Source of the DNA: Chloroflexota bacterium
GTDB taxonomy: Bacteria > Chloroflexota > UBA11872 > VXOZ01
Direction: 5' to 3'
DNA length: 64,000 nucleotides
Assembly: GCA_958295775.1 (NCBI GenBank)
Contig: CATQHC010000002.1
Location: 572,915 to 636,914, forward strand
In this document: positions 580 to 16,451 of the stretch, piece after piece
Layout of the letters: each line of letters begins with the position of its first letter
Position numbering within the stretch: position 1 is the first letter of the stretch
Notes under the pieces: model-generated
The model's input: the letters and a program-made list of their open reading frames with translations, nothing else
Database searches by the model: none
What the model was told of the DNA's origin: nothing
Program-made: the position numbers and the translations under genes

Positions 580-4854
<4,275 letters not shown>

Positions 4855-4920
4855 CACAGACGCAATCACGCGCCCACGTCTCGGAGCGTCTGATCAAACA
4901 GGAAGTGCTTGCAAGATGTC

Positions 4921-4949
4921 TGTCACTCCGGCGTAAGCCGGAGTCCAGA
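4921..4949 (+). repeat. palindromic repeat, intergenic copy
   Basis: ACTCCGGC-GTAA-GCCGGAGT (4925-4944), bordered by GTC and CCAG, is the same element as the copies inside the upstream gene. It lies between the convergent restriction-modification and FRG-TPR genes and may serve as a bidirectional stem-loop. Confidence 0.8.
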
Positions 4950-4986
4950 GGACACGCTATTGTCGCCAAGTTCCGCCTGGATGCGC

Positions 4987-6507
4987 CTACTCCTCGCCAT
5001 TGGCCGTGAGCATTTCCACAATACTCGCAGGAAGCTTGACCTTGTATCGCTCCTCAAAAGCCGATACGCTACCAAACTCGTCACGAAATGCAGAAACAAC
5101 ATCAACCCCAAGGCTCTTTGCCTTGGACAAGTCAGCTTCAGCCTTTCCCCACATTCTCAAGGCGAGCCAGCACTCACCACGATTGTAGTGGAAACTTCCT
5201 AAGCTCCTGTCTACATTCACTAGTTTGCGGAAATGCTGGGTCTGGCGTTGTTGTTTACTCTCCACAGTGCGCACCAAGCCAGAATTGCTATGAGACTTAG
5301 TTGGGTTGGAATATAACGCTATCGCTCTGTCAAATTCCTGAATTGCGTGCTGGTATTCACTCTTTCTCATGTACGCGATGCCGCGACCGTCGTAGGCTTC
5401 GGCCAAACAAGAATTTAGCTCTATTGCCTTGTCGAAGTCCTGCAATCCCGATTCGAAGTCACCAATTCTCGTGTACACTATGCCGCGATTGACATAAGTC
5501 TCCGCCAAGCAGGGAGCTATTGCAATCGCCTCACCATAGTCCTGGATTGCCTGCTTGGGCTCGCCCTTGGCTGAGAAAGAACGACCACGATTGATAAGGG
5601 CTACAACGAGGCTGGGGTCCATTTCTATTGCTTTGCTGAAGTCCTTGATCGCGTTGTCATAGTCCTCTATAGACAAATAAACTACTCCGCGACCGTAAAA
5701 GGCAACTGCCATTCCCGGATCAATTGCGAGTGCCTTACTGTAATCTTGAATAGCAAGATCATAGTCCTCTTTGGAAAAATGAACATTGCCGCGATTGTTG
5801 TATGCTAGGGTTAGTCGTGGATTCAGCTTAATGACATTGCTGTATCTGTCAATGGCTGCTTCATACTCTCTTTTTCTTGCATGAGCTTCGGCAGCGTAGA
5901 TTTCCAGATAAGCACTCTCATGGCCCTCATGGTATCGGATGAATCCATGGAAATCGTTATAAATGGTCTGGGCTCGGACATTGTGGTGCTTGCCTAAGTG
6001 TTCTAAGATAGGTTCTTTGAGCTCATGTGGAACAGAAATTGTCTTGTCCGGTATGAGAAAGCCCTTTGGCGGCCGCACAAACACGCTCTTTTGTGCGATG
6101 ACGCGATTTGCCGGACTCTTGGGTTCCAGCAACGGGAAACTGCCCTTTTCTAGCAGGATGACCCGTCCGTCTCTTGCAGGTTTACTGTCGCAGGCAAAGA
6201 ACAGCGCGATCAGAAAGTCTGTCGTGAAGTCGATCAGATTGGTGACAGAGCCGAAGTGCTGGAGTTGAGCCAGGAGATCGTCTTCATCCATTTGACCGGC
6301 GAATTCTTGGGCTGACTTCAGCATTTCCGTTTGGGCAATTTCGATGTCTAAACCCTCTACCTTGATTTCTTCGCGTCTGCGGTAGAGGCTCGACGACACG
6401 CGACAGTAATGCCTTGGTTCTCCCCGGTAGAGATAATCACCGTCCGCCGATTTCTCGGCAATCTCCTTGAGAATCTGCAGGACTCTCTCTAGGAAAGGTC
6501 TGAACAA
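4987..6507 (-). CDS. FRG-domain and TPR-repeat protein, 5' end displaced by an insertion sequence
   Basis: The 506-residue frame now opens at a TTG inside the terminal repeat of the adjoining IS element. The N-terminal half is an FRG domain, with LYRGEPR at 26-32, QLQHFG at 81-86 and TNLIDFTTD at 89-97, the family's hallmark blocks. Residues about 207-410 are six consecutive 34-residue TPR units, each with a good A/G-Y-...-A...A-P pattern. FRG domains are of unknown biochemical role; TPRs bind other proteins. The native start is most likely the GTG at 7724 on the far side of the IS, giving 515 residues. It lies next to a restriction-modification gene, so a defence role is possible but only inferred. 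Whether the current TTG is translated is unclear. Confidence 0.75.
   Translation of the reverse strand: MFRPFLERVLQILKEIAEKSADGDYLYRGEPRHYCRVSSSLYRRREEIKVEGLDIEIAQTEMLKSAQEFAGQMDEDDLLAQLQHFGSVTNLIDFTTDFLIALFFACDSKPARDGRVILLEKGSFPLLEPKSPANRVIAQKSVFVRPPKGFLIPDKTISVPHELKEPILEHLGKHHNVRAQTIYNDFHGFIRYHEGHESAYLEIYAAEAHARKREYEAAIDRYSNVIKLNPRLTLAYNNRGNVHFSKEDYDLAIQDYSKALAIDPGMAVAFYGRGVVYLSIEDYDNAIKDFSKAIEMDPSLVVALINRGRSFSAKGEPKQAIQDYGEAIAIAPCLAETYVNRGIVYTRIGDFESGLQDFDKAIELNSCLAEAYDGRGIAYMRKSEYQHAIQEFDRAIALYSNPTKSHSNSGLVRTVESKQQRQTQHFRKLVNVDRSLGSFHYNRGECWLALRMWGKAEADLSKAKSLGVDVVSAFRDEFGSVSAFEERYKVKLPASIVEMLTANGEE
6492..6507 (+). repeat. left terminal inverted repeat of the IS5-family element
   Basis: GGAAAGGTCTGAACAA is the transposase-distal end. 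Read on the minus strand it supplies a TTG codon that opens the remaining FRG-TPR frame. Confidence 0.88.
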
Positions 6508-6659
6508 CTCTGTGTAGGCTTGGTGTTAGTGGTGTGTGCGGGATTATGGGGCGTTTTGGGGTGTGTTTTGGCGTTTCGGTGGGGCTGTTTTGCCCGTGTT
6601 TTGGCGCTGCTGGGAGCGTTTTTCGCTCCCGCTCGTGTTTTGGGCGCACTACTGCCGTG

Positions 6660-7610
6660 TCACGCAGTCACGTAGCGTGCGGCCGTCACCACATTGGTCA
6701 GCCCCAGCAGCAACGCCAGCCGTTGCGTGTTCTTGGACAGACCCCGGTAGCGCACCGTGGCGTAGCCGAAGTGCCGCTTCACCCACAGGAACGGATGTTC
6801 GACCTTGGCTCTGACTGACGCTTTGCGCTGCTCGGCCAGCGCCGCCGCGCTCTCAGGCGCCAGTTGCCGCCGCTGCCCCGGCTTGAGCGCCACCTGCCAC
6901 GCTACCGCGCGCCCCTGATGCTCCAGCCGCTTCTGCACGCCGATGTACCCGGCGTCTCCCCACACCTGCTGCTCCCCACCGTGCAGCAACGCTCCCGCTT
7001 GCGTCACGTCGTGCACGTTGGCCGCTGTGGTGCTGAAGCTGTGCACGAGCCCCGTCTGTGCGTCGGCGCCGATGTGCAGCTTCATTCCAAAGTAATACTG
7101 GTTCCCCTTCTTCACCTGCCGCATCTCCGGGTCCCGCTGCCCTTCGCGGTTCTTGGTCGATGTCGGCGCTGCGATGATGGTCGCGTCCACGACCGTCCCT
7201 GCCCGCAGCCGCAAGCCTTGCCTCGCCAGATGCGCGTTGATCTCCGCCAACAACCCCTCTCCCAACCGATGCTGCTCCAGCAAATGCCGAAAGTGCAGGA
7301 TCGTCGTCTCGTCCGGCAGCGCTGCCGACAGCCGCAGCCCCACGAACCGCCGCACCGGTTCCACCTCGTACAGCATGTCCTCCATCCCAGGATCACTCAG
7401 ATTGTAGAACAACTGCACGCAGTGTACCCGCAGCATTACCGACAAAGGATACGGCCGCCGCCCACGCCCCGCCTTGGGATAGTACGGCGCGATACGCGCC
7501 TCCATCTCCGCCCACGGGAGCAACGCGTCCATGCGCTCCAAGAACTTCTCCCGCCGGGTCTTCCGCTTCTTCTGCGCGTACTCCAACTCGGCAAACGTCG
7601 GCTGCTCCAT
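6660..7610 (-). CDS. IS5-family DDE transposase
   Basis: The protein has 316 residues from the ATG at 7610, which has AGGAG seven bases upstream; a longer frame to 7649 lacks such a site. It opens with an IS5-type helical N-terminal domain (residues about 5-110). The catalytic acid residues are readable as D142 (VVDATI), D219 (WGDAGYIG) and E271 (VEHPFLWVKR), in the spacing of the family. The length is usual for IS5 and no stop or frameshift is seen, so the enzyme is probably active. It cuts and joins the ends of the element that carries it. Confidence 0.93.
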   Translation of the reverse strand: MEQPTFAELEYAQKKRKTRREKFLERMDALLPWAEMEARIAPYYPKAGRGRRPYPLSVMLRVHCVQLFYNLSDPGMEDMLYEVEPVRRFVGLRLSAALPDETTILHFRHLLEQHRLGEGLLAEINAHLARQGLRLRAGTVVDATIIAAPTSTKNREGQRDPEMRQVKKGNQYYFGMKLHIGADAQTGLVHSFSTTAANVHDVTQAGALLHGGEQQVWGDAGYIGVQKRLEHQGRAVAWQVALKPGQRRQLAPESAAALAEQRKASVRAKVEHPFLWVKRHFGYATVRYRGLSKNTQRLALLLGLTNVVTAARYVTA

Positions 7611-7663
7611 TCCCCATCTCCTCGCCATAAGCTGCTTTCTTGCTATCATACTATGCCAAGGGC

Positions 7664-8036: not shown

Positions 8037-8136
8037 TTTTCCCTTGCCTGTGGCTTTGTCTCCTCAGCGAAATTGACGCATTTCCGTATTTACGCTATTC
8101 TCACTCTTGGTCACGATTTTGAGGAGTTAAGAGCTT

Positions 8137-8415
8137 ATGCAAACCAAGAAGAAGAGACTCACACTGGACCTCGACCCTCCGGTACAGCGGCGTCTGAAGG
8201 CGGTGGCGGCGCTCAAGGGCATCAGCATGAGACGGTATTGCCTGGCCGCCATCGACAAGGAGCTCGCGCGAGACGAGGCCAACGGCGCGTTCGCCGGCAG
8301 CTTCAACATCGAGAGGCTCGTAGCCCTGCAAGAGGAGGCGTTTGGAGACAAGGTTCTGCCGGCAGACGGGGCTGAGTTGATACGGGAGGCGCGCGAGTCT
8401 AGGAGCATCTCTTGA
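8137..8415 (+). CDS. antitoxin of a VapBC-type pair
   Basis: The product has 92 residues. The N-terminus, KKRLTLDLDPPVQRRLKAVAALKGISMRRY, follows the ribbon-helix-helix plan (a strand followed by two helices) used to bind operator DNA as a dimer. The C-terminal half (FNIERLVALQEEAF) would be the toxin-binding tail. The stop codon overlaps the toxin start by four bases (TTGA), so the two are translated together. Such pairs usually repress their own promoter; the operator is not obvious in the short upstream stretch. GAGGAG lies about 14 bases before the ATG. Confidence 0.78.
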   Translation: MQTKKKRLTLDLDPPVQRRLKAVAALKGISMRRYCLAAIDKELARDEANGAFAGSFNIERLVALQEEAFGDKVLPADGAELIREARESRSIS

Positions 8416-8855
8416 ACGGTTACGTTGTAGTGGACGCGAGCCTGGCGTGCAAGTGGCTGGTCAAGGAGAAACACACCGCCGAGGCCAACGCGCTTGGCCG
8501 CTTGTGGAACAGCCAGAGAATCCGAATCGCGGCGCCGTACCTGATGCCTGTGGAAGTGACCAATGTCCTCCACCAAAGGGTGAGGCGAGGCGAGTTGACA
8601 TTGCAGGCGGCGACACAGCGTATGGAGAGCCTGCTGTCAGCGGGCCTCGAATTATTTCAGCCGCCACGCCTTTACGGCAGGGCCTTGGAGTTGGCAAGCC
8701 AGCTTAGACAAGGCGCGGCCTATGACGCCCACTACCTGGCTCTGGCAGAGGCTCTCGGCTGCGAGCTGTGGACGGCCGATGAGAAGTTCTACCGGGCGGC
8801 GGGTCCTGTTGTTCGGCGTGTCCGTTGGGTGGGAGAGCTCGCCGCCCAGGGTTAG
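8412..8855 (+). CDS. vapC: VapC-type PIN-domain ribonuclease toxin
   Basis: The protein has 147 residues and starts at the TTG at 8412, overlapping the antitoxin stop. Acid residues of the PIN active site are in place: D8 (VVVDAS), E48 (PVEVTNVL), D105 (YDAHYLALA) and D123 (WTADEKF). They bind Mg2+ for RNA cleavage. VapC toxins typically cut tRNA or rRNA when the antitoxin is degraded. Length and order are standard for the family. The pair lies between two truncated Fic genes and beside a tRNA-Leu copy, in a rearranged region. The RNA target cannot be read from the sequence. Confidence 0.88.
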   Translation: MNGYVVVDASLACKWLVKEKHTAEANALGRLWNSQRIRIAAPYLMPVEVTNVLHQRVRRGELTLQAATQRMESLLSAGLELFQPPRLYGRALELASQLRQGAAYDAHYLALAEALGCELWTADEKFYRAAGPVVRRVRWVGELAAQG

Positions 8856-8945
8856 CCAGAAGCCTCTGTACGGCGGAAAAACAACCCCACACCGCCCGGT
8901 GCATCGAGGATTGGGGAGGCGGTGTGCTCTGCACTGCGCGGCTGT

Positions 8946-9030
8946 TGGTGGGGACGGTGGGACTCGAACCCGCACGCCTTGCGGCACATGATCCTAAATC
9001 ATGCTCGTCTTCCAGTTCCGACACACCCCG
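8946..9030 (-). tRNA. degenerate tRNA-Leu(TAG) copy, probable pseudogene or attachment remnant
   Basis: This is nearly identical to the intact tRNA-Leu at 11010-11091 through the D, anticodon (loop TTTAGGA), variable and T arms. It differs where it matters: the 5' acceptor strand reads CGGGGTG, leaving a C1-C72 mismatch and two wobble pairs, and the T stem has a C-A mismatch. Unlike the intact copy, it encodes the 3' CCA. Loss of the correct 5' end with the 3' part retained fits an integration remnant or a tandem-duplication scar. Confidence 0.7.
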
Positions 9031-9172
9031 TTCTTCAATTCTAACAGTGACACGTCAAAGAGCGTAGCATGGTTTCTGATAGGTCTAACCATGTAGCTCC
9101 AGGCGTGCTCAATGCTTTGGGCGACTCCGGCTATGCTGGAGTTAGTTACCCAGAAATTCGGTGAGTTTGCGA

Positions 9173-9480
9173 ATGGCCTTTGCTCCGCGCTTTACTATCA
9201 CGAACGCAATCACCACGGCGCTCACGGAGATCGAGCGGGCGCGGGGGTTTCTGGAGGCGGCTACGCTCACGGATGAGTGGGTAGACGCGATGCGTTCAGA
9301 GGCGTTTCTGCTAGAAGCGCATCACACGACGCACATCGAGGGAACGAGGCTTACGCTGGAGGACGCCGACGATCTGCTAGCGGGCCGTGCGGTGCCGGGA
9401 GCGGACCCGGACGACGCCCGCGAGCTTCTAAACTACCGTGAGGCGTTCGCGATCACAGGCATTTACTTCAACGACGGGCG
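9173..9480 (+). pseudogene. Fic-family N-terminal fragment B
   Basis: From the ATG at 9173 about 100 residues read as a Fic-protein N-terminus: [17 protein letters not shown], then [18 protein letters not shown] with the typical IEG block, then LLNYREAF. After about 9480 the frame stays open to 9844 but turns into low-complexity sequence that includes a 28-bp tandem repeat and runs antisense into the next gene. The catalytic HPFxxGNGR segment is absent. AMPylation activity is therefore not expected. Confidence 0.72.
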
Positions 9481-9631
9481 TGCCTGCAGACAGCTCCGGC
9501 TGAACTTGCGACAAACTTGCGCCACAACTTGCGACAGGCTTGTGACATTGAGACAAGCCACGCGGGTGGCGCACGGGCCGGTGCGAGACGAGAAGTGGGT
9601 GTGCTCGGGGCGCAGCAAGCGTGCGGGTGCA

Positions 9632-9715
9632 GCAAGCTCACTCAAGCATGGCGGGCGCAGCGGGCTCACTCAAGCGTGGTGTGCGCAGCCGGCTCACTCA
9701 AACGTGGCGGGTGCG
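9632..9715. repeat. 28-bp tandem repeat, three copies
   Basis: Units start at 9632, 9660 and 9688, each around a GCTCACTCAA.C.TGG core, with a few mismatches between copies. The array lies between the broken Fic frame and the 3' end of the convergent regulator gene. Confidence 0.85.
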
Positions 9716-10666
9716 CTATGGTCGTGCGCTTTGCGCCGGATCGCCGTTCAGCAGTCCGTGGCGCACGGCCCAGACGACCATTTCCTGAATGGACTTGGCG
9801 CCGATCTTGTCACGGATAACGTAGATGGCGTTGCGGATGGTTAACGGGCGATTGCCTCTGATCTCAGCGATCTCCGCATACGACAGCCCCTGCGCAAAGA
9901 GGGTAAGTATTTCCCGCTCTCGCTCGGTGAGGCCGTCATGCCGCGGTTTCCCATCGCCCGGCGTTGCTGAGCGGATTCTGTCAAATACCCGCCGCGTAAG
10001 GTCGCCCGGAATACTGAATTCGCCAGCAGCAACTTCCTGGATTGTTGAAAGGAGTCTCTCCTTGCCGGACAACTTCTGCAGATACCCGGTAGCGCCGGCG
10101 GCCACCGCTGCCAACACGGCGTCTTCGTCGGTCGAAGCAGTCAAAATGAGCACACGGGTGTCAGGCAGTGCTTCCCTAATCTCCCGGCACGCCTCGATAC
10201 CGTCTTTCTCCGGCATCATCACGTCCATTACGCTCAGCAAGAGGATCAACTGGTGCGTCAATTTTCGATTTGCAAGGATGCGGAAGTGAACGAATCCGTT
10301 TAATGCTGACACCAATACGAGAATACTGCTGTATTCCGCATAACTGACGAAGTCGAAAGCGGGGCGATAGAGCAACAGCGCCACGCAAATGCCAATAAGC
10401 ATCCAGCGGAGCCAGACCGAGATGTTCCCCAAGTACCGCAATTCGTCCGCTTGCGTTACATTGAAGCCCAATCGACGCATCGACAAGACATCGGTAACTA
10501 CACTCAGAAGCCCCTGCGCGCGATTCCAGATGCTCGACGTGCGCGACGGTGACGTTGGGCGGGGACTGTACTCATAGACCTGCAAAGCGAGCCCTGCCTT
10601 TCCAGCCACGCCACTATGTGCCGGGGCAAGACGCGAGTGAGAGGAGCCGGAACTCTTGGGTCTCAT
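9716..10666 (-). CDS. chimeric protein: sensor-kinase-like membrane part fused to a response-regulator tail with LuxR-type HTH
   Basis: The frame has 316 residues. Residues about 84-145 form hydrophobic segments like the membrane input part of a sensor kinase. At about residue 145 the sequence switches into the second half of a receiver domain: [11 protein letters not shown] with the phosphate-accepting D148, then LILTAS and the GATGYLQK lysine block. Residues about 245-305 are a LuxR-type helix-turn-helix ([23 protein letters not shown]). The receiver's first strands and acidic pocket are missing, as are all kinase catalytic boxes. This is what an in-frame deletion across adjacent kinase and regulator genes would give. 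The start is uncertain; M63 is an alternative. A membrane-tied or inactive regulator is likely. Confidence 0.65.
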
Positions 10667-11009
10667 CTATACTCTATCGCGCTCATCAATCCCGTCAAGC
10701 AGCAAGCGTAGGTTACGCGTCCAATCCAGGTAGGAATGCCGATTGAGGCAGAGTTGAGAGACCTAGGCTTTGGATTTGTGCCCTATATCTCCTCGGTCGC
10801 AGAGGCAATGCTGTAGGTAAGGTCGCCACAGTTGGGCAGACAAGCTGCAAATTAGTAAGGGTTTGCGGGCATGCGCGTGACGCCCAAATAGGAGACCTCC
10901 AGCCCAGAGTTGGGCGCGGGCAGCAATGAAACGCCTGGCGGCGTTATGCGTGGATTCCTCGGTGACTAAACGCCCCGCCGCTTGGCGCACTCTCACTGGG
11001 CCGACCGGG
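10667..11009. other. intergenic stretch without a gene
   Basis: No coding frame with a ribosome site or recognisable product is seen between the chimeric regulator and tRNA-Leu. It would contain the 3' flank of the tRNA and, if an island is present, its junction. Confidence 0.5.
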
Positions 11010-11091
11010 TGGGGACGGCGGGACTCGAACCCGCACGCCTTGCGGCACATGATCCTAAATCATGCTCGTCTTCCAGTTCCGACACGTCCCC
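11010..11091 (-). tRNA. tRNA-Leu(TAG)
   Basis: The cloverleaf is complete. The acceptor GGGGACG pairs perfectly with CGTCCCC, the anticodon stem CATGA/TCATG holds loop TTTAGGA (anticodon TAG, reads CUA), the long variable arm is typical of Leu, and T stem GCGGG/CCCGC pairs fully. The 3' CCA is not encoded (CCC follows the discriminator A). Its 3' end faces the accessory region at 480-11000. Confidence 0.95.
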
Positions 11092-11200
11092 GTGGAGTCT
11101 ATTCTAGCAGCGGCAGGCTGGGGCGACTAGATGAGCAAGGCCGATAGGCGGAGCTTGCCGTGCATACTGCGACAGGCTCAGTGCGAGCGGATAACGGACC

Positions 11201-12592
11201 TCATTGCCCGGTTTGGTTCGCGACCTGTTCGGCAATCTCCTCGGCGGGGTAGGTGAGGATTTCCGCCAGGGTTGGATGGTAGTGCGGGATGCGCATGAAG
11301 TCCTGGGCGGTGGCGCGGAAGTGAAGCGCCACAATGCACTCGTGAATCAATTCGCCCCCCTCCGGCCCCAGCACCTGGTAACCGAGAATCTCACCCGTTT
11401 GCGCATGACCGACCATCTTGACAAAGCCGCGGGTCTCACCCAGGCAGAGCGCCTTACCATGGTCGTTGAAAGGGTAAGAAGCCGTGACGATGGGTAACCC
11501 TTTGGAACGGGCCTCCTTTTCAGTCATGCCGACGCGCCCGTACTGCGGCTCGGTGAAGACGACGATGGGCACGATGCGGTAGTCCATGTACTGCGGGGGG
11601 CCGGCGCCAAGCGCGTTGTGGGCCGCTATCTCGCCCTGCTGGATTGCCACGTGCACGATGTCGTAGGAGACGGTGACGTCGCCGACGGCAAAGATGTTCG
11701 GATTCGACGTGCGCATGGCGGTATCTGTGGCAATACCGCGCCCCGTGCTTTCCACACCGGCGGCGCCAAGGTTCAGGCCCTCCAGCGCGGGACTGCGTCC
11801 TGTGGCCACCAGGATTTGGTCAACCTCGATTTCGCTTTCCACGTCGTCCTGCGCGAGGTGGAGGACTTTCTTGCCGTTGCGTTGCTCCACGGCGTTGAGC
11901 CGCGTGGCGCAGCGGATGTCCATGCCGTCTTCCCGCAGGTATTCGCCCAGCGCCGTGCCCACTGCTTCGTCTTCACTGCTCAGCACACAACTGCTCCGCT
12001 GCAGCAGCGTGACGGCAGCGCCAAGCCGTGAATAGAACTGGCCCAACTCAAGGCCGATCGGTCCGCCGCCGAGCACACAAACGGACTCCGGCAACTCTTC
12101 CAATTCCAGCGCCTCGTCGCTCGTGATGTATCCCGCTTCCGCCAGTCCCGGCACTTTCGGCACAAACGGCACCGAACCGGTGGCGATGACGAATTTGGGC
12201 GCGGTGAGAATGCGATCTCCAACCTGTACGCTTTCGGCAGAGAGAAACTGCGCCGCGCCCTCAAAGAGCGCGATATCCGGTGAATTGAGCTGCTCGATGC
12301 GGTAGTCTGCGAATTCCTTCACCAAGCGCCGCTTGCGGGCGATGATGGCAGGCAGGTCGGACGTGACTGAGCCAACGTGGATGCCCATCTCTGCAGCGTG
12401 CTGCGCGTGGTAGAGTCGGCTTGCCGACGCAAGAATTGCCTTGCTCGGCATGCAGCCCCGCAAGATGCAAAGACCGCCCAACGGCCCTTGTTCGGCCACC
12501 GCCACACGGGTGCCCCGCTCGGCGGCCGTGCGCGCCGCGGCATAGCCGGCGCTGCCGCCGCCCAGTACGATCAGGTCAAAACGCTCAGCCAA
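11201..12592 (-). CDS. FAD-dependent dithiol-disulfide oxidoreductase (dihydrolipoamide dehydrogenase / mercuric reductase family)
   Basis: The product has 463 residues. It has an N-terminal FAD fold (VLGGGSAGYAAARTA), the redox pair GGLCILRGCMPSK, a central NAD(P) fold (VCVLGGGPIGLELG), the second FAD motif (IFAVGDV) and the C-terminal dimerisation domain with HYHPTLAEI, whose His-Glu pair acts as the proton donor. This is the full lipoamide-dehydrogenase plan. No 2-oxo-acid dehydrogenase subunits lie nearby, and no heavy-metal cysteines are seen at the ends, so the physiological disulfide is unknown. Translation appears to start at the TTG at 12592, with GGAAGAG just upstream and no close ATG. 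Confidence 0.87.
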   Translation of the reverse strand: MAERFDLIVLGGGSAGYAAARTAAERGTRVAVAEQGPLGGLCILRGCMPSKAILASASRLYHAQHAAEMGIHVGSVTSDLPAIIARKRRLVKEFADYRIEQLNSPDIALFEGAAQFLSAESVQVGDRILTAPKFVIATGSVPFVPKVPGLAEAGYITSDEALELEELPESVCVLGGGPIGLELGQFYSRLGAAVTLLQRSSCVLSSEDEAVGTALGEYLREDGMDIRCATRLNAVEQRNGKKVLHLAQDDVESEIEVDQILVATGRSPALEGLNLGAAGVESTGRGIATDTAMRTSNPNIFAVGDVTVSYDIVHVAIQQGEIAAHNALGAGPPQYMDYRIVPIVVFTEPQYGRVGMTEKEARSKGLPIVTASYPFNDHGKALCLGETRGFVKMVGHAQTGEILGYQVLGPEGGELIHECIVALHFRATAQDFMRIPHYHPTLAEILTYPAEEIAEQVANQTGQ

Positions 12593-12730
12593 GGCTCTTC
12601 CACTCTCCTCATTTCATTGCGATTGCGGCGTGCGCAATCCACGTCAACTCTCGTCTTTATTGCGTAGGTGCGCCAGGGAAAGGTCAATCATCCGCTATGG
12701 GGCGGCAGTTCACCTTCCGGGCGCTGCTGC

Positions 12731-13573
12731 TCACCCGCCTGGCTTTCCCAAGCCGCCAACTGCCGTAATCACCGCCTCACTGTCTTTCAGCCAGGCGTGA
12801 TTCGGGTCGTCCCGGGGTGCCAGCACCCGTTGATTGCCGGCAAGAATCCAGAGGTAATAGAGTTGATAACCTGGACCTGCAACGACGGGATGGTAACCGC
12901 GAGGAATGGCCACCACATCGCCGTCTTCAACCGTGTACGACTCGTTCAATGAGCTGTCGTCGGTATAGACCCGCTGCATGCCAAAGCCCCGCGCCGGCGT
13001 GATGCGGAAGAGATATGCTTCCTCATGTGCAGATTCGTGCGGCGGATCGTCAACCTCATGTTTGTGCGGCGGCGCGCTGCTCCAATATCCGGGCGGATTG
13101 AAAGTCTCGCCCAGGACCATGGTATGGGCCGGAAAGGGCGCATCGATGATGTCGTAGATCAGACGGAACCAGTTGCCTTGCCCGACTCTGCGGACCTTGA
13201 GTTGGTCCGGTGTAATTATGTGCGAAGCCGTACCCGGATTGCCGGGCGTGCTGCAAATCACCAACTGCAGGGTTGCGTGGCCCTGCGCGCGGACTTCCCA
13301 CGTTTGCTCCGGCGCGACGAAGACCGTAGAAGACGGGCCGGCAAAGACGCTTTGACGCTGGCAATGGTGGACAATGCCGTGGGACTCGACAGCGATGGTC
13401 GCTTCGCCTGCTTGCAGCACCAGGGCCGATTCCCAGGCCCCGGTGTCGCCGGAATAGGAATCTCCAGGCGCCAGCCTCAAAACTGAAATGCGAATGCGCT
13501 CCAGGGAAGGATGTCGCTCCGCGACGATCGCATGGTAGCCCAAACCCGAAGGTGCCTTGTGGAGGAGATTCAT
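12731..13573 (-). CDS. iolB: 5-deoxy-glucuronate isomerase
   Basis: The protein has 280 residues from the ATG at 13573, preceded by AAAGGA seven bases upstream; the longer frame to 13612 lacks a site. It follows the IolB double-cupin pattern. The C-terminal cupin carries the metal-binding block PPHKHEV...ESAHEEAYLFR and later YHPVVAGPGYQLYYLWILAG. IolB isomerises 5-deoxy-glucuronate to 2-deoxy-5-keto-gluconate in myo-inositol breakdown. The other iol genes are not in this window, but two TIM-barrel sugar isomerases (29039 and 63485) could belong to related pathways. It is transcribed divergently from the gene at 13900. Confidence 0.9.
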   Translation of the reverse strand: MNLLHKAPSGLGYHAIVAERHPSLERIRISVLRLAPGDSYSGDTGAWESALVLQAGEATIAVESHGIVHHCQRQSVFAGPSSTVFVAPEQTWEVRAQGHATLQLVICSTPGNPGTASHIITPDQLKVRRVGQGNWFRLIYDIIDAPFPAHTMVLGETFNPPGYWSSAPPHKHEVDDPPHESAHEEAYLFRITPARGFGMQRVYTDDSSLNESYTVEDGDVVAIPRGYHPVVAGPGYQLYYLWILAGNQRVLAPRDDPNHAWLKDSEAVITAVGGLGKPGG

Positions 13574-13720
13574 CAATTGATCCTTTCTCGCAACTTTCGA
13601 GCGACTGCGCAAAATGGCAGTCGCAGCAGAATATCTGCCATCTGCATATAGGATTGTGCGGTTTGCTATACGGTACCTAATGCGCCACCACGCTGCAATT
13701 GCTCTATCTCGCCAAATTCC

Positions 13721-13750
13721 TTGACTCTGTGGACTACCGGTTACTATAAT
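13721..13750 (+). promoter_or_regulatory. sigma-70-type promoter for the gene at 13900
   Basis: TTGACT at 13721 and a perfect TATAAT at 13745 are 18 bases apart. Transcription would start near 13757, leaving a leader of about 140 bases that contains the hairpin at 13795-13813. Confidence 0.7.
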
Positions 13751-13794
13751 CGTCTAGATTAGGCAGTTGCGCTCATGCAACCGGCTAAGGGTTG

Positions 13795-13813
13795 CGGAGG
13801 CATTGGGCCTCCG
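13795..13813 (+). terminator. short hairpin in the leader, possible attenuator
   Basis: CGGAGGC and GCCTCCG (loop ATTGG) are followed by ATTTCTCC. It lies about 40 bases after the predicted transcription start and before the gene, so it could end or pause transcription in the leader. The T-run is weak. Confidence 0.35.
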
Positions 13814-13899
13814 ATTTCTCCGTCAGCAGCTAGTTTAAGTCTGTTGCGGCTTAGGGCAAGCGAGCCGACGCTGTACATCAAGAATTCGAGGTTACCAGC

Positions 13900-14649
13900 A
13901 TGCCTCCGCTTACAATCGTCACTGCAATAATCGGCGCCTTCCTGTTAGCTATTGGGCTGATTGGCAGGACCGCAGGTCGCCGCCCTGGAGTATCGTTAGG
14001 CGCTATGGTCGTGGGTGTTGTATTGCTCGTGGTCGCCGTGATATTCATGGTTTCCGGTACTTCAGATACAGAGTCTCCGGAGAACGCTGGCGCAACCATC
14101 AAGGTGAGCAGCACGGCAACCGCGGCGGCGAAAGGTGATGAGGAGTCAGAATCGGCTGCCGATGCGGCCGACCTGCCGCTCATTGAAGCGGCGGCCAGGC
14201 CGGAGAACTTTGGCGAGCTGGAGGTCTTTTACGAAGCCGGCACGTCAGTCGCAAATTTCGATGCCTTCAGATTGATGGAAATGACGGCTTACGGCCCGGC
14301 GGGGCACGGCATTGGAATCGAGAAGTCACCCTTTGAGGTCGGCCAAGAGATTTACATTGAATTTACCGTCCAGAACCTGCGCGTGCCGCCGATCGAGCTA
14401 AACCGAACGTTTGTTGCCGTGAACCATCCCACAGGCGAAGAAATACACTTTGGGCTAGCTCATGAAGGGGTGGAAGTTGTGCGGTACCAGAAGTTTAAGA
14501 CCGGGGTAGTCATACCGCTCGATGTAGCGGGACAGTGGGAAATCTGGCCCTGTTATCAGTTGTTGCTGGATGACGACACGCTCCGAGACCGCTGCACGGC
14601 CAAATGGCAGTTCTTCACGATTGAGGTGAAAGAGAGTAGTCAGTCTTAA
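13900..14649 (+). CDS. membrane-anchored extracytoplasmic protein, unknown function
   Basis: The product has 249 residues. Two hydrophobic helices (about 3-22 and 32-54) are followed by an acidic, Ala/Thr-rich linker (about 55-100) and a soluble domain (about 105-245). That domain reads like an Ig-like or DUF-type beta fold: YIEFTVQNL, a Cys pair near the end (WPCYQ and RDRC), and WQFFTIEV at the close. I recognise no named family. It has its own promoter and precedes a Tat lipoprotein gene. The Cys pair suggests an exported, disulfide-bearing domain. Confidence 0.7.
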   Translation: MPPLTIVTAIIGAFLLAIGLIGRTAGRRPGVSLGAMVVGVVLLVVAVIFMVSGTSDTESPENAGATIKVSSTATAAAKGDEESESAADAADLPLIEAAARPENFGELEVFYEAGTSVANFDAFRLMEMTAYGPAGHGIGIEKSPFEVGQEIYIEFTVQNLRVPPIELNRTFVAVNHPTGEEIHFGLAHEGVEVVRYQKFKTGVVIPLDVAGQWEIWPCYQLLLDDDTLRDRCTAKWQFFTIEVKESSQS

Positions 14650-14828
14650 GCAAGCGCGCATAGGGGTAGAGCGCGGCGTAGAGTTCTCCTTGTGCAAGCT
14701 TCGGTCGCACAGCAAAGCAACGCCGACTTCGTTCACTTGCTAGCATATCTCTAAATCTGGAAACCAAGCCTCGTCTCAGACCTGCCGGTTTGGGCGTGAA
14801 GACCAGGCAGTCGTAAGAGAGTATCTCG

Positions 14829-14867
14829 ATCACTACAGAGGCCGCGGGACGCGGCCTCTGTAGTGAT
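14829..14867. terminator. strong palindrome, likely bidirectional terminator
   Basis: An 18-bp perfect stem (14829-14846 with 14850-14867) closes on a GGA loop. It lies between the membrane-protein gene and the promoter at 14899. The trailing T-run is poor in both directions, so termination strength is uncertain. Confidence 0.55.
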
Positions 14868-14898
14868 TCATGGGAGTCGGTTGTTAGGGTTAGAGTCC

Positions 14899-14927
14899 TT
14901 GACCCACCTTGACGAAACATATATAAT
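14899..14927 (+). promoter_or_regulatory. sigma-70-type promoter for the solute-binding protein gene
   Basis: TTGACC (14899-14904) is followed after 17 bases by TATAAT (14922-14927). The predicted start near 14934 gives a leader of about 140 bases to the ATG at 15075; I see no riboswitch in it. Confidence 0.75.
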
Positions 14928-15074
14928 TTTTCCTAGCCTAGCCAAGTACAGTGCGAATGGCTAATCGGATTTTGTGAGTGGACCTGCAACATGGCTGGGC
15001 GATTTGTGGCCGATAGAGTTGGCCCATTCATTTGCGGGTTATAGCTGGGGAAGAGCCAAAAAGGAGGAGTCCCC

Positions 15075-16451
15075 ATGACGTTGACAAGACGATCGTTGCT
15101 GGGCGCTGGCGCCGCAGCCGGTGGTGCTGCGTTGCTGGCCGCGTGCGGCACGGCGGCGACGACGGGTGCGCCTAAGGATGACATGGCCGAGGCGCCCAAG
15201 GCCGAGGAAAAGACCGAGATGATGGAGACGCCGGTGCTGAAGATCTCTAACTACCACGCGGAAGAAGATCCGCGCTGGAAGGCGCTCTCTGAGACGTTTG
15301 CGGTCGCTGAGGAGTCTCTCGGTATCGAGATCGAGGCGACGCCCGACCGGACGTTTGACGGCGGCGTGTTTGCCAAGCGCAACACCGAGTTTGCCGCCGG
15401 TGAAGCCGGCGTGGACATCACTTACAACCAGGTCAACTGGGCGCTCAAGTGGGGTCTCACCGGTGTTATCGAGGAACTGACGCCCTATTTCGCCAAAGGC
15501 CCGCGCAGCAAAGAGGACTACTTTGCCGGCGAGCTGGTGAATTGGAGCTGGGGCCCGAACCTGTACGGCGTGCCCTTCCAATCGGGTGGCGAGGTATTTC
15601 ACGTAAACAAGGACCTGCTCACCCAGGCCGGTGTTGACATGCCTCCACCGGACTGGACCTATGAAGACTTGCTGGACATGTCCCGCAAGCTCACCAATGA
15701 AGAAGAGAAGAAATGGGCTCTGGTTATTTACCAGAACTACGTCTTCTACATGATGGGCACGTGGATGTATAACTTCGGCGGTCAGATCCTCAACGAGACT
15801 AAGGACAAGGCGCTCTATGGCACCGATCCGCTGTCTCTTGAAGGCGCTCAGTTCAACATCGACTTGGCGCTTAAGCACAGGGTGATCGCGCCGGGTGCAG
15901 ATGAAATTGGCGTCGAGTTTGCCACAGGCACCTACCACATAGAGAACCAGTTCGCGGCGATGGAGAACAACGGTATCTACCGCCACAACGGTATTCGCCC
16001 GCACTTGGGCGAGGCCTTGGACTTCCTACCCCCGCCAAAGGGTCTGGACCAACGCGTAACCGTGCTGGGTAATGCGTACTCCATCCTCAGTCTCTCCGAG
16101 GCCAAGGACTTGGCATGGGACTTCCTCATGTGGTTCCACTCTGACGAGAGCATGCTGGAGACCCCGCACTTCGGTTCCATCGCGTGGCCGCCCGTCATCG
16201 AGTACGCCACGCATCCGGTATGGCTGGAGCCTTTCAAGGGCACCCGCGTAACGGACGTGGTTGACGTGTGGATTTCCGGTGGACACGATGCCATGATCGT
16301 GCCCGAGGGCACCGAGGCTTGGGGTATTGACATCGAGTGGACACGCAAGGCAATTTCCGGTGAGGTCACCGTGCCTGAGGCGTTCCGCTCATCCGCCGAA
16401 GAGATGAACGTGCTCTTCAGCCAGCGGCCCGCCGAGTGGGCGATGTCATAG
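15075..16451 (+). CDS. ABC-type extracellular solute-binding protein, Tat-exported lipoprotein
   Basis: The product has 458 residues. The N-terminus has a twin-arginine motif (TRRSLLG), a hydrophobic run rich in Ala and Gly, and the lipobox LLAAC at about residue 24, so it should cross by Tat (tatC is at 22115) and be lipid-anchored. The rest follows the family 1 (sugar-type) binding-protein plan, with hinge blocks such as WTYEDLLDMSRKLT and ITYNQVNWALKWG. A strong AAGGAGGAG site precedes the ATG. No permease or ATPase genes follow; a terminator and a spondin-domain gene come next. The ligand is unknown, though oligosaccharides are usual for the family. Confidence 0.9.
   Translation: MTLTRRSLLGAGAAAGGAALLAACGTAATTGAPKDDMAEAPKAEEKTEMMETPVLKISNYHAEEDPRWKALSETFAVAEESLGIEIEATPDRTFDGGVFAKRNTEFAAGEAGVDITYNQVNWALKWGLTGVIEELTPYFAKGPRSKEDYFAGELVNWSWGPNLYGVPFQSGGEVFHVNKDLLTQAGVDMPPPDWTYEDLLDMSRKLTNEEEKKWALVIYQNYVFYMMGTWMYNFGGQILNETKDKALYGTDPLSLEGAQFNIDLALKHRVIAPGADEIGVEFATGTYHIENQFAAMENNGIYRHNGIRPHLGEALDFLPPPKGLDQRVTVLGNAYSILSLSEAKDLAWDFLMWFHSDESMLETPHFGSIAWPPVIEYATHPVWLEPFKGTRVTDVVDVWISGGHDAMIVPEGTEAWGIDIEWTRKAISGEVTVPEAFRSSAEEMNVLFSQRPAEWAMS

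Follow-up and report, generated by a model that had tools for sequence, protein, structure and literature searches.

Described relatives and layout of the chimeric gene

Response regulators of the NarL/LiaR/VraR type combine a receiver (Response_reg) with a GerE DNA-binding domain, and the MadS/UhpB/NarX/LiaS-like sensors represent the HisKA_3 membrane kinases. According to a study on NarL, its output domain alone represses frdA constitutively and does not activate narG, and the loop alpha5-alpha6 impairs DNA binding (PMC4549865). A DNA-binding domain is also tied to the membrane in the one-component regulators ToxR and CadC; as described in PMC5936718, members of the ToxR family have an N-terminal winged helix-turn-helix (HTH), one helix and a C-terminal periplasmic sensor.

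The gene described here lies in a window of 64,000 nucleotides from a Chloroflexota bacterium, the window being the whole stretch of DNA that was analyzed. Its product has the same HTH and the second half of the receiver of NarL/LiaR/VraR-type regulators, but it lacks the first receiver half and the acidic pocket, and is fused to a membrane part. The best solved relatives are DevR (3c3w), VraR (5hev/4gvp) and NarL (1a04), and NarL is also the best NCBIfam match, under its cut-off. At its N terminus, the membrane part shares homology with that of the kinases of the intact pairs presented below; the catalytic parts of those kinases match the MadS, UhpB, NarX and LiaS models below cut-off, and the chimera differs from these kinases in having neither HisKA_3 nor HATPase_c, and only two full transmembrane helices. 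Compared with the ToxR family, the chimera has two helices first, a C-terminal LuxR-type HTH and no sensor domain, and it departs from the layout of a ToxR-like membrane-integrated regulator in both domain order and HTH type. The parts of the gene are:

9716..10666, minus strand: chimeric open reading frame, 316 amino acids plus stop (ORF listing and translation)
10229..10666, minus strand: kinase-derived half, residues 1-146, the N-terminal sensor region of a kinase of the HisKA_3 type, catalytic parts absent
10367..10423, minus strand: transmembrane segment 1, residues 82-100 (Kyte-Doolittle hydropathy)
10271..10327, minus strand: transmembrane segment 2, residues 114-132 (Kyte-Doolittle hydropathy)
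10217..10228, minus strand: junction MDVM, codons ATG GAC GTG ATG, where the kinase frame meets the regulator frame
10040..10228, minus strand: second half of the receiver (Pfam Response_reg); first half, with the acidic pair and alpha1-alpha2, absent
9767..9934, minus strand: LuxR/GerE helix-turn-helix, residues 245-300 (Pfam GerE, 4.2e-9)

Translation placed the ATG start at 10666 and the stop at 9716-9718, which bears out the 316-residue frame of the initial annotation. The annotation had read the protein as a kinase-like membrane part running straight into the second receiver half, with the Asp and the HTH kept, and Pfam, the kinase matches and hydropathy agree on this. Pfam gave no match in the first 143 residues of the chimera; residues 64-151 align at 41% with the kinase of G001, a genome of the same genus, in which both HisKA_3 and HATPase_c were found, while neither was found in the chimera. 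By comparison with relatives, the chimera also retains the beginning of a third transmembrane segment. The match to Response_reg (PF00072) at residues 144-209 (1.2e-14) covers only the final 60% of the domain, model positions 45-110 of 111. The receiver is incomplete: the acidic pair region is gone, and D148, T176 and K198 are retained. D148 is invariant in the alignment, and we take it, by its position in the receiver, to be the phospho-acceptor; T176 and K198 are presumably the receiver Thr/Ser and Lys. The HTH is whole, GerE (PF00196) passing its cut-off with 36.3 versus 23.5 bits.

Intact pairs in relatives and synteny

In relatives, the two halves of the chimera are found in separate genes, residues about 49-151 matching a kinase gene and residues 145-314 matching the next gene, a response regulator (61 genomes, and a class-wide set of 41 that overlaps with the former). 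At E <1e-50, the regulator was detected in 16 genomes of the class-wide set (out of 40 besides the window's own), and 19 loci were fetched for comparison. The full pair with matching ends that the initial annotation had suggested looking for in relatives is therein, including one copy, in G001, at the same chromosomal place as the chimera. The G001 genes and the syntenic anchors in the window are:

L079:10761-12032, minus strand: G001 kinase, with Pfam HisKA_3 and HATPase_c
L079:10091-10759, minus strand: G001 regulator, with full receiver and GerE
11008..11091, minus strand: tRNA-Leu (tag), anchor upstream of the chimera (ARAGORN and alignment)
11201..12592, minus strand: anchor gene that we take to be dihydrolipoamide-dehydrogenase-like

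Window positions 2236-4847 and 11219-14126 align with L079 at 4066-6920 and 13347-16211, respectively, the regulator half with 10097-10588, and the tRNA-Leu region 11008-11138 with 12719-12848. The dehydrogenase-like gene shares amino acid identities of 87% with G001, 91% with G004, 90% with G003 and 80% with G002. In G005 (locus L080), the kinase-regulator pair has as its neighbours the PIN-domain pair and the Fic fragment that are also present in the window.

The same architecture was also searched for in other genomes, as a conserved family of such proteins had been named as what would contradict an origin by deletion. Among the listed matches from 60 other genomes and from 40 others (overlapping sets), no protein spans both the kinase part and the HTH, nor was the chimera found among 41 loci, judged by match ranges; 7 of these 41 loci with a match across the junction were inspected, and all 7 are ordinary full receivers. 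With no supporting relative found among these matches, a conserved family with this architecture was rejected, and we give it next to no credence.

The junction and its likely origin

At the junction, the window reads ATGGACGTGATG, and around it AGC GTA ATG GAC GTG ATG ATG CCG, which is kinase-like upstream (LSV) and regulator-like downstream (MMP); the shared codons at 10217-10228 are where the annotation had located the join. For the intact pairs, 16 of the 19 fetched loci were used: L081 and L089 were excluded from pair counts and trees as more distant paralogues (53-54% identity), and L085, whose kinase lacks its N-terminal half, contributed its regulator alone. In 11 of the 16 pairs, 1114 nt separate the two points that meet in the window, and in the other 5 the distance is 1111 nt, in line with the earlier proposal that the lost kinase and receiver start correspond to what lies between adjacent genes.

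A short direct repeat, likewise anticipated at the breakpoints, is present in the nearest intact relative: in G001, ATGGATGT is found at both breakpoint places, 1114 nt apart, with 8 identical nucleotides, beyond which there is one mismatch and then AT. Among in-frame breakpoint pairs drawn at random in G001, runs of at least 8 have a frequency of 0.00023 (about 2 in 10,000). The runs are of 7 nt in G015b, G035, G031, G023 and G027 and of 2-5 nt in the other 10 pairs; hence, the run is at least 7 nt in 6 of 16 pairs and shorter in 10. Moreover, the kinase and regulator frames differ in G001, and a deletion of 1114 nt unites them in frame. Given the 1114/1111-nt spacing and the G001 repeat, the join is best accounted for by a deletion between short direct repeats; which repeat exactly is a reconstruction, since the parental copy is gone in the window lineage and a run of at least 7 nt occurs in only 6 of the 16 relatives. 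These comparisons fit a deletion of approximately 1.1 kb at a short repeat that by luck preserves the frame.

In the ancestral operon, the gene for a NarL/LiaR-type response regulator would thus have come after that for a membrane histidine kinase of the HisKA_3 type. Some 1.1 kb would have been deleted between short matching stretches, the kinase LS-x-DV codons and the regulator I-MDV-MMP codons, taking what remained of the kinase together with the first receiver half and leaving, as comparison with the intact pairs indicates, a chance in-frame join. The predicted product has two transmembrane helices, a receiver half with neither acidic pocket nor full fold, and an intact HTH. Such a mechanism is ordinary, and its outcome is unusually clean. 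The observation of a chimera is confirmed, and its origin by deletion is supported by the sequence comparisons.

An error of assembly or sequencing, with the genome truly carrying an intact pair, could give the same picture, as there is one genome assembly only and the junction sits on a short repeat. However, the repeat is of about 8-12 nt, assembly words usually being far longer than that, the assembly consists of 9 contigs for 3.4 Mb, and the kinase pieces were not found elsewhere in the genome. We regard such an artefact as very improbable.

Probable loss of phosphorelay and predicted fold

Missing from the chimera are HisKA_3, HATPase_c and the first receiver half with its acidic pair, and a search of the window's own genome with the G001 kinase returned a single match, the chimera itself. 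As HisKA_3, the ATPase and half of the receiver are missing and no other copy of the kinase was found, the phosphorelay appears to be lost, and the chimera would be unable to join its former pathway. In the AlphaFold model, pLDDT is 90-94 for HTH residues 251-290, in the 60s for half-receiver residues 151-210 and 54.8 for the chimera overall; in the intact G001 regulator, residues 11-120 reach 80-96. Overall, the HTH is predicted to be folded, and the half-receiver not. Modelling used alignments A4 (regulator-half rows only) and A3, while A1 and A2, in which the halves were mis-aligned, were left out; the membrane part of the chimera model therefore rests on a single sequence.

Divergence and fate of the locus

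The pair is absent from three of the five other same-genus genomes: in G002, G003 and G004, the regulator was not found at 1e-20, nor the kinase at 0.001, nor any DNA match at the locus. As these genomes do without the pair, even though G003 and G004 are closer to the window than G001 by the dehydrogenase-like gene (90-91% versus 87%), the system seems to be dispensable in the genus. For this reason, the fate of a remnant is favoured. We consider it highly probable that the gene is a chimera born from a deletion, most likely at a locus on its way to loss; the locus is probably decaying, and the remnant would most likely end as in the same-genus genomes that now lack the pair. If the protein is made, it would at most be a signal-blind DNA binder, held at the membrane or freed by proteolysis.

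Against a long-dead gene stand the wholly open frame and a regulator half that is not sped up. In this half, dN is 0.154 between the window and G001, 0.180 between the window and G005, and 0.183 between G001 and G005, and of 65 columns that are otherwise invariant, 2 carry a change private to the window, a number also seen in four intact copies. Its divergence does not exceed that of intact relatives. An open frame with a conserved regulator half may mean either that the deletion is recent or that the HTH half is under selection. Synonymous sites are saturated (pS 0.55-0.81), so no age can be given for the deletion.

In the kinase half, three-taxon arithmetic gives dN branches of about 0.45 for the window, 0.09 for G001 and 0.16 for G005. 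Such a long branch might suggest relaxed selection on this half, but intact kinases, for example those of G020, G025, G015a and G030, have long branches as well. Furthermore, the trees place the window kinase half beside G020 (93/88), and the regulator half with G001 and G005 (99/98). Based on this conflict and on the long branches, the sensor part may already have been divergent when the deletion took place, or may have been replaced by exchange before it.

The HTH half could, alternatively, serve in a working membrane-anchored one-component regulator, in which a two-helix hairpin would tether to the membrane an HTH of the LuxR type that is constitutively free, and in which repression would be the main activity. 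The 316 open codons and an HTH that is both conserved and predicted to be folded are consistent with such a protein, as is the basic RILANRK loop after the second segment, which would put the HTH in the cytoplasm under the presumed topology. When neutral drift was simulated to 0.1 substitutions per site, only 19% of runs left the kinase half open, which also speaks for maintenance, but a recent deletion accounts for the open frame equally well. Moreover, the architecture was found in no second species, same-genus species manage without the pair, and an exposed half-receiver would likely be degraded. The NarL precedent cuts both ways: the isolated output domain does repress frdA constitutively, but it fails to activate narG, and the loop alpha5-alpha6, when kept without the receiver, weakens DNA binding (PMC4549865). 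The analogy with NarL suggests that, if any activity survives, constitutive repression is the likeliest one. On balance, we find a working regulator unlikely. Rather doubtful, too, is the more specific proposal that one deletion turned a two-component system into a one-component, membrane-held LuxR-type regulator maintained by selection, with the HTH half conserved and in frame and the sensor half drifting.

Whichever fate applies, the locus is a clean case, anchored by synteny, of a kinase-regulator operon becoming one open gene in a single step. A working product would show that a two-component system can pass directly into a one-component system; if the product does not work, annotators are warned that a 'membrane-bound LuxR regulator' can be a deletion scar. 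No matching report on membrane-bound LuxR-type regulators or on deletion fusions was found in the open-licence literature searched.

Neighbourhood of the locus and related observations

The chimera is flanked by two copies of tRNA-Leu (tag), at 8946-9030 and 11008-11091, 96% identical over 83 nt, and one copy is found at this place in G001-G004. Directly behind the chimera stop, at 9629-9714, there are three copies of a 28-nt tandem repeat that occurs in one place in the genome. Positions 8046-8889 hold a ParD-like/PIN toxin-antitoxin pair with DNA identities of 92% to G005 and 90% to G003; this pair is likely mobile, because nearby DNA is mostly 75-88% identical. A truncated Fic N-terminal fragment lies at 9161-9475 (Fic_N just under cut-off; DNA identity 84% to G004 and 82% to G002), another broken gene in this variable stretch. 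On the minus strand, at 6660-7649, there is a frame with no match in the aligned G001 DNA; by eye, we take it to resemble an IS5-type transposase.

In G016 (G016:C22, L085 4568-5166 to about 6100), a kinase of the same family is also without its N-terminal half. There, 8.3 copies of a 72-nt repeat enter the kinase at LSALDVALVTGG, which coincides in position with the junction in the window; judged by eye, the repeat presumably belongs to a leucine-rich-repeat gene on the opposite strand. The L085 kinase break looks like a second, independent break at the same spot.
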